Source of the DNA: Candidatus Competibacter sp.
Lineage (GTDB): Bacteria > Pseudomonadota > Gammaproteobacteria > Competibacterales > Competibacteraceae
Reading direction: 5' to 3'
NCBI GenBank assembly: GCA_029624815.1
Contig: JARSSH010000057.1
Span: 1 to 64,000, forward strand
DNA: 64,000 bases
Part shown: in pieces, positions 33,879 to 34,082 of the stretch
Layout: every line of letters begins with the position of its first letter
How positions within the stretch are numbered: the stretch's first letter is position 1
Position numbers and translations under genes: made by a program
Notes under the pieces: model-generated
Seen by the model: the letters and a program-made list of their open reading frames with translations, nothing else
Told to the model about the DNA's origin: nothing
Databases searched by the model: none

Positions 33879-34066
33879 GATGTGAAGTCCGTGGAGAGGT
33901 GTCAGACCTGTGGGGGTATGCGGTTGAGTGCGGAACACTCGTAAAACCCCCTCCGGGGGGAATTGCGAAAACCAGGCTCGGTACTCCCATGGGCAACCTC
34001 GTCGAAGCAGAAAACCCTGATTGTGAAGTCAGGAATCCCCGTCCTTCAGGGCGGGGAGGATGTCAA
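33879..34066 (+). mobile_element. IS200/IS605 (tnpB-type) right-end remnant
   Basis: This stretch has the look of a tnpB 3' end and right end without the rest. One frame from 33879 reads DVKSVERCQTCGGMRLSAEH and stops at 33942-33944, resembling a TnpB tail. It is followed by an AACCCCC...GGGGGG hairpin, CTCGGTACTCCCATGGGC, a long single-stranded stretch and a terminal hairpin at 34037-34056 leading into GATGTCAA at 34059-34066. TCAA is a known right-end cleavage tetranucleotide in this family (for example ISDra2). No tnpA, no TnpB catalytic core and no TTGAT-type left end were found. Confidence 0.75.
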
Positions 34067-34082
34067 TCGGAGACGCTCGCTC
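33945..34082 (+). ncRNA. omega-RNA (reRNA) scaffold relic with guide position at the modA start
   Basis: In IS605 elements the right end is transcribed as omega-RNA that guides TnpB; the scaffold ends at the element boundary and the first roughly 16 nt of flanking DNA act as guide. Here the scaffold boundary is TCAA at 34063-34066, and the following 16 nt (34067-34082, starting TCGGAGACG) end immediately before the modA ATG at 34083 and include its ribosome-binding site. Whether it is transcribed is unknown, and no TnpB lies in the window, so it may be inert or act with a protein encoded elsewhere. Confidence 0.55.

Follow-up and report, generated by a model that had tools for sequence, protein, structure and literature searches.

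Immediately upstream of modA, the window (the whole stretch of Candidatus Competibacter DNA analysed, 64,000 nt) contains a complete, non-autonomous 356-bp IS200/IS605 element (positions 33711–34066) of the palindrome-associated transposable element (PATE) type. We consider it probable that this mini-element, devoid of tnpA and tnpB, has kept the omega-RNA scaffold of a TnpB system in an apparently elaborated form, and that it is served by proteins acting in trans. Its layout comprises a TCAT abutting the left end, left-end hairpins, the putative RNA scaffold, a right-end hairpin and a closing TCAA (Table 1).

Table 1. Features of the mini-element at modA and of its neighbours (window positions).
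Feature	Position	Strand	Remark
TCAT target at left end	33707..33710	+	TCAT directly 5' of left end in most copies elsewhere
Whole mini-element, 356 bp	33711..34066	+	
Left-end hairpin CCCCGGCG-TTCA-CGCCGGGG	33730..33749	+	
Second left-end hairpin GGTCCCCCTCGCGGGGACT	33771..33789	+	
21-bp tandem duplication	33826..33867	+	Found in the modA copy alone
Scaffold 5' hairpin CCGCC-GGGCG-GGCGG	33864..33878	+	Resembles tnpB 3' end of likely parent element
Conserved RNA scaffold core (predicted)	33887..34017	+	Covariance model and pair counts
Core helix P0	33888-33892/34007-34011	+	
Core helix P1	33896-33899/33997-34000	+	
Core helix P2	33907-33918/33982-33993	+	
Core helix P3	33919-33923/33963-33967	+	
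Core hairpins	33926-33940 and 33948-33959	+	Second is CCCCC/GGGGG
CTCGGTACTCCCATGG	33978-33993	+	Read in sequence
Right-end hairpin CCCCGTCC-TTCA-GGGCGGGG	34037..34056	+	
TCAA right-end cleavage motif, element boundary	34063..34066	+	
16-nt flank in guide position, TCGGAGACGCTCGCTC, modA leader	34067..34082	+	
modA, molybdate-type solute-binding protein	34083..34838	+	
Hydantoinase A/B fusion, left neighbour	30006..33710	-	

A sequence-only reading of this place had described an IS200/IS605 right end without tnpB. The family and the absence of tnpB stand, but the right end is not a lone one, since a left end with its TCAT and hairpin sits at 33707–33749 and makes the element complete. The landmarks named in that reading (the CCCCC/GGGGG hairpin, CTCGGTACTCCCATGG, the terminal hairpin, TCAA, and the 16 nt that stop just before the modA ATG) can be read directly in the sequence. 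Sub-terminal palindromes are present at both ends, and the first left-end hairpin occurs in other copies of the same genome in compensated variants (CTCCGGCC..GGCCGGAG). The target motif is short at the left end, a related motif is found at the right end, and there is no target duplication; terminal inverted repeats are absent, as no inverted-repeat pair of 14+ nt was detected at the element in a repeat scan. The CAT of the left TCAT is also the hydantoinase start codon read on the opposite strand. A left end cut by a deletion of modE was considered and rejected, as the sequence fits the left-end consensus and is one base off another copy in the same genome (L116). Of the tnpB-like 3' tail said to run to 33944, the TAA codon (33942–33944) is present and falls within the predicted RNA fold, but a recognisable TnpB C-terminus is not: TnpB proteins compared with the element by tblastn gave nothing convincing (best E 0.003 among the matches listed, in another frame and place). 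Likeness to the tnpB 3' ends of the family is confined to the scaffold's 5' portion, CCGCC..GGCGG..GTGGAGAGG.

The scaffold was assessed with a covariance model, R1, which was trained exclusively on ten copies from other genera and whose structure was set by hand, guided by the RNAalifold fold of these copies, in which a long outer stem encloses inner hairpins. R1 matched the window scaffold, which lies outside the training set, at 33887–34017 with 72.9 bits (E 1.3e-17), and thereby supports the omega-RNA-like scaffold proposed from the sequence. Rfam at gathering thresholds was blank at the element; the sub-threshold Rfam matches there include sot0042 (RF02656; 23.4 bits vs. 88 for gathering). 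RAGATH-18 had no match in the window, and weak, below-threshold matches to it lie at two tnpB 3' ends (L144 and L161). In alignment A3, both-side changes were counted in 16 of 37 pairs vs. 7.3 in shuffles (42 vs. 11.5 cells; 0/500 shuffles); most A3 training sequences, taken alone, show little variation. Alignment A4, composed almost wholly of sequences outside the R1 training, yielded 22 of 37 pairs vs. 10.4 and 55 cells vs. 17.8, with neither value reached in 500 shuffles, these counts being read with both alignments fitted to R1 and with relatedness left in place by the shuffles; upon sliding the structure as a control, 5–8 pairs were obtained. All six helices show compensatory changes on A4. 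This covariation suggests that the scaffold is an RNA.

Omega-RNAs lie at the 3' ends of tnpB genes. At modA, the structured fold likewise reaches the right end of the element, with the flank in guide position; no tnpB is encoded with the fold or overlaps it, while the likely parent elements (L161, L140) have one. R1 matched 53 places, spread over 12 of the 39 family genomes. Comparison of these with the list of tnpB matches placed only one of them (G019:C243) beside a TnpB domain match, and the extended three-way-junction scaffold was found beside no tnpB. In the fetched tnpB loci, R1 gave short matches (~50–75 nt, 19–31 bits) at tnpB 3' ends, e.g., in L144 and L146.

The scaffold looks like a selected RNA rather than debris, because its conservation exceeds that of the left end. 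In 11 copies from other genera, the average identity per 20-column window is ~0.76–0.83 in the left end and ~0.85–0.95 in the scaffold (means ~0.78 vs. ~0.90), a contrast that points to selection on the scaffold. The five full-length copies of the genome itself differ at 4–17 positions in the left ~126 nt and at 0–3 in the right 208 nt; this sameness of the right side could reflect selection, or gene conversion instead.

The genome (3.63 Mb, 70 contigs, 99.97% complete) contains six copies, in which the 188-bp right stretch is full length in five and 169 bp long in one, with 99–100% identity and flanks that differ from copy to copy. Among 39 family genomes, a ~340-bp version is present in further genera (G030, G038, G013, G035, G012, and a more distant one in G025), with 67–81% identity to the window element over most or all of its length. 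Across several genera, most copies have TCAT before the element and TCAA at its end; exceptions to TCAT in the own genome are TCAC (L116) and CCAT (L006). No copy inspected contains tnpA or tnpB; the sequence-only reading was right that TnpB would need to be supplied by another locus. At the DNA level, a class-wide search for the scaffold had no hits outside the family, although the covariance model did reach beyond it; a pattern scan of IMG/VR gave 0 hits, and BLAST of the element against plasmids and phages returned almost only the universal ~36-nt right-end hairpin. These last 36 nt are generic, being identical in tnpB elements on Klebsiella plasmids, in unrelated bacteria. The probable tnpB-bearing parent is a tnpB-only element on contig C41 of G030 (L161), which encodes a 382-aa protein (Pfam HTH_OrfB, OrfB_IS605, TNB) and has a left end and a region around the right end that match the mini-element; elements of this type are likely the autonomous source of the mini-elements. 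On contig C47 of G038 (L140), left end and tnpB match, and the contig stops before the right end.

R1 also matched units with non-IS605 ends (L115, L191, L192, L199, L201, L202, and over ten copies in G012). These are ~270 bp long, start around GG(G)TTGACA and end in ..GATGCAACGG or ..TTTACGCAACGG; many have a TTGACT..TAAAAT-like promoter, as judged by eye. GG at both ends is a feature of IS607 elements, and judging from their ends the ~270-bp units would be IS607. The same right end is also found on tnpB genes of the family (L143, L144, L145, L150, L162, L163), and BLAST of an IS607-like unit against plasmids gave no match. In a second family of the class (f116; genomes G153, G268, G365), further scaffold copies are present, most of them ending in ..ACGG, and no TnpB match was found in the fetched loci of that family. 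Stand-alone IS607-like mini-elements of ~270 bp that combine promoter-like sequence with the R1 scaffold and end in ..GCAACGG were noted at L115, L191, L192, L199, L201, L202, L214–L220 and L223–L232, and contig C11 of G268 has three tandem scaffold copies with a 795-bp period (L239, L242, L245).

Candidate trans transposases are encoded in the genome itself by Y1 tnpA genes on contigs C21, C38 and C29, the last in two frames. A search of the genome for tnpB gave a single assembled gene (C30; L001 1075–1752), which is N-terminally truncated: its 225-aa frame is without about the first 180 profile positions. With about half of the protein missing at the N-terminus, the product would be neither an intact nuclease nor the full-length dead homologue that had been imagined elsewhere in the genome. 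Contigs C13 and C29 start within a right end, 53–54 nt in, a pattern suggestive of collapsed longer copies, and an intact tnpB copy in this genome may be supposed from these two contig starts. TnpB is found in 12 of 12 genomes with R1 matches vs. 23 of 39 overall (p 0.0003, phylogeny ignored), in line with a TnpB being borrowed in trans. Neither a full-length TnpB homologue with a broken RuvC (TldR type) nor a conserved target was found in the search for such a system; an unassembled copy is possible.

TnpB guides record the insertion site, and cleavage of the empty site favours retention and spread (PMC11870625). By analogy to this scheme, a Y1 transposase would move the mini-element in trans and a TnpB would use its transcript, also in trans, with the variable 3' flank guiding the TnpB to the empty insertion site (TCAT plus flank). 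Excision would then be followed by cleavage of the empty site and copy-back and, within the proposed mechanism, retention would be favoured. At the modA locus, the element is associated with the loss of modE, and the position of the guide on the modA leader would be a side effect of where the copy landed.

In L015, L125 and L126, three relatives, the hydantoinase gene is followed by modE and then modA, and the element is absent. The window lacks modE, and the element fills the hydantoinase–modA gap, at the breakpoint; since modE is missing here, the exact empty site is not visible in the relatives, all of which are without the element. In L015 and L018, the modA ATG is preceded, at a distance of exactly 16 nt, by TTCAC or TTTAC, which makes a TCAT target at that place plausible, and the flank at 34067–34082 would simply be the remaining modA leader. 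The loss of modE may have come about in either of two ways: two copies, at the hydantoinase TCAT and in front of modA, may have recombined, or an adjacent deletion may have removed the gene. Compared with L015 (3937–5001), modE and the hydantoinase–modE promoter region are lost (window 33710–34083), and regulation of the mod operon may be altered. The closest named relative of modA is that of Ca. Competibacter phosphatis (82%), in keeping with a genome of the Competibacteraceae; a metagenome-assembled genome labelled as a Synechococcaceae cyanobacterium (L016), probably mislabelled, has a Competibacter-like modA (81%).

That the guide position stops at the modA start codon had led the sequence-only reading to an RNA that, with TnpB or a dead homologue encoded elsewhere, could target modA-type starts, the mod operon included. 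In a regulator of this kind, a dead TnpB and the scaffold RNA would control modA or the mod operon, perhaps in place of the lost ModE repressor. Dead TnpBs acting as RNA-guided repressors do exist (PMC13418256), and a modE ortholog is absent from the genome, where the sole match of a ModE search is a TOBE-only molbindin-like protein (C45). Nevertheless, such a regulator is very improbable. The guide is preceded at this locus by TCAA and not TCAT, the scaffold–modA junction is absent from every relative examined, the flanks of the other copies are unrelated, and no full-length dead TnpB was found. Moreover, a search of the 3.6-Mb genome for the 16-nt guide gave no exact match besides its own site, so that repression of modA-type starts is not supported; as the two best near-matches (2 mismatches each) have no TCAT before them, a current guide target is not visible either. 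Most likely, the guide points at modA by accident of the landing site.

The other alternatives concern the scaffold itself. As an ordinary inert PATE, the element would be a deletion derivative whose ends still transpose and whose middle is unselected baggage. The modA copy has no sigma-70 promoter in a promoter scan, and PATEs that arose by core deletion, some with tnpB C-terminal sequence retained, are known (PMC3119063, PMC7290912). This explanation—close to the inert relic left by deletion which had been the fallback of the sequence-only reading—is unlikely, though it has more in its favour than a regulator, given that scaffold pairs covary across genera in all six helices, that the scaffold is conserved above the left end, and that the fold turns up again with other transposon ends and in another family. 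It is also conceivable, with quite a low probability, that the conserved fold serves transposition at the DNA level, as single-stranded hairpins bound by TnpA. IS200/IS605 ends do work as single-stranded DNA hairpins, and shuffled sequences fold less well than the window strand (z -2.96, calculated with RNA parameters). IS608-type TnpA recognises sub-terminal hairpins, whereas the fold is internal and away from these; it is also contained in elements with IS607-looking ends, and IS607-type elements would use a serine recombinase. The trans-served mini-element with a guide-RNA scaffold is the preferred reading.

A tnpB-less IS605-type mini-element is as such an already known kind, the PATE (PMC3119063, PMC7290912): lack of a transposase, sub-terminal palindromes, a short left-end target motif, mobility in trans and, in some PATEs, retained tnpB 3' sequence are common to both. 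The difference lies in the interior, which here is apparently a covarying RNA conserved across genera, whereas the PATE literature consulted here describes degenerate or non-coding interiors. With omega-RNAs, of which sot0042/sotRNA (RF02656) is an IS200/IS605 TnpB family (PMC12558985), the scaffold shares its place just 5' of the right end, the flank in guide position, the weak sot0042 match, and the low-scoring R1 matches at tnpB 3' ends. It differs in the lack of a cis tnpB and in a core of ~131–138 nt with an added three-way junction, compared to ~50–75 nt at the tnpB 3' ends here. The IS607 TnpB reRNA RAGATH-18 (RF03064) has the same position relative to TnpB, but does not match the extended scaffold, and the window element is of IS605 type; as 64% of RAGATH-18 RNAs adjoin IS607 TnpBs (PMC11061315), RNAs lacking a neighbouring tnpB have precedents. 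TldR guide RNAs, some of which are reported to have an expanded stem-loop (PMC13418256), would be the analogue of a TnpB-type guide RNA directed to the start of a gene, but the mini-element has no conserved target and no conserved gene association, and no TldR was found. Within the literature searched, a selected omega-RNA-like fold as the interior, common to two sorts of transposon ends, appears to be new.

TnpB guide RNAs are usually regarded as belonging to a tnpB gene or as joined to one. We put forward, as a possibility that falls a little short of probable, a family of stand-alone guide-RNA mini-elements with one extended omega-RNA fold, selected without a cis tnpB, on IS605-type and IS607-like ends in two families, and served by a trans TnpB or a dedicated effector. 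If gene-less mini-elements keep guide RNAs by selection, RNA parasites or partners would form an additional layer of TnpB systems; one nuclease would work with many guides in trans, much like a CRISPR array, and the RNA module would have crossed between elements of IS605 type and IS607-like ones. With the covariance model and the list of copies, this idea can be tested. Elsewhere in the window, a t44 RNA (RF00127) was detected at positions 5441–5528 with 68.5 bits.
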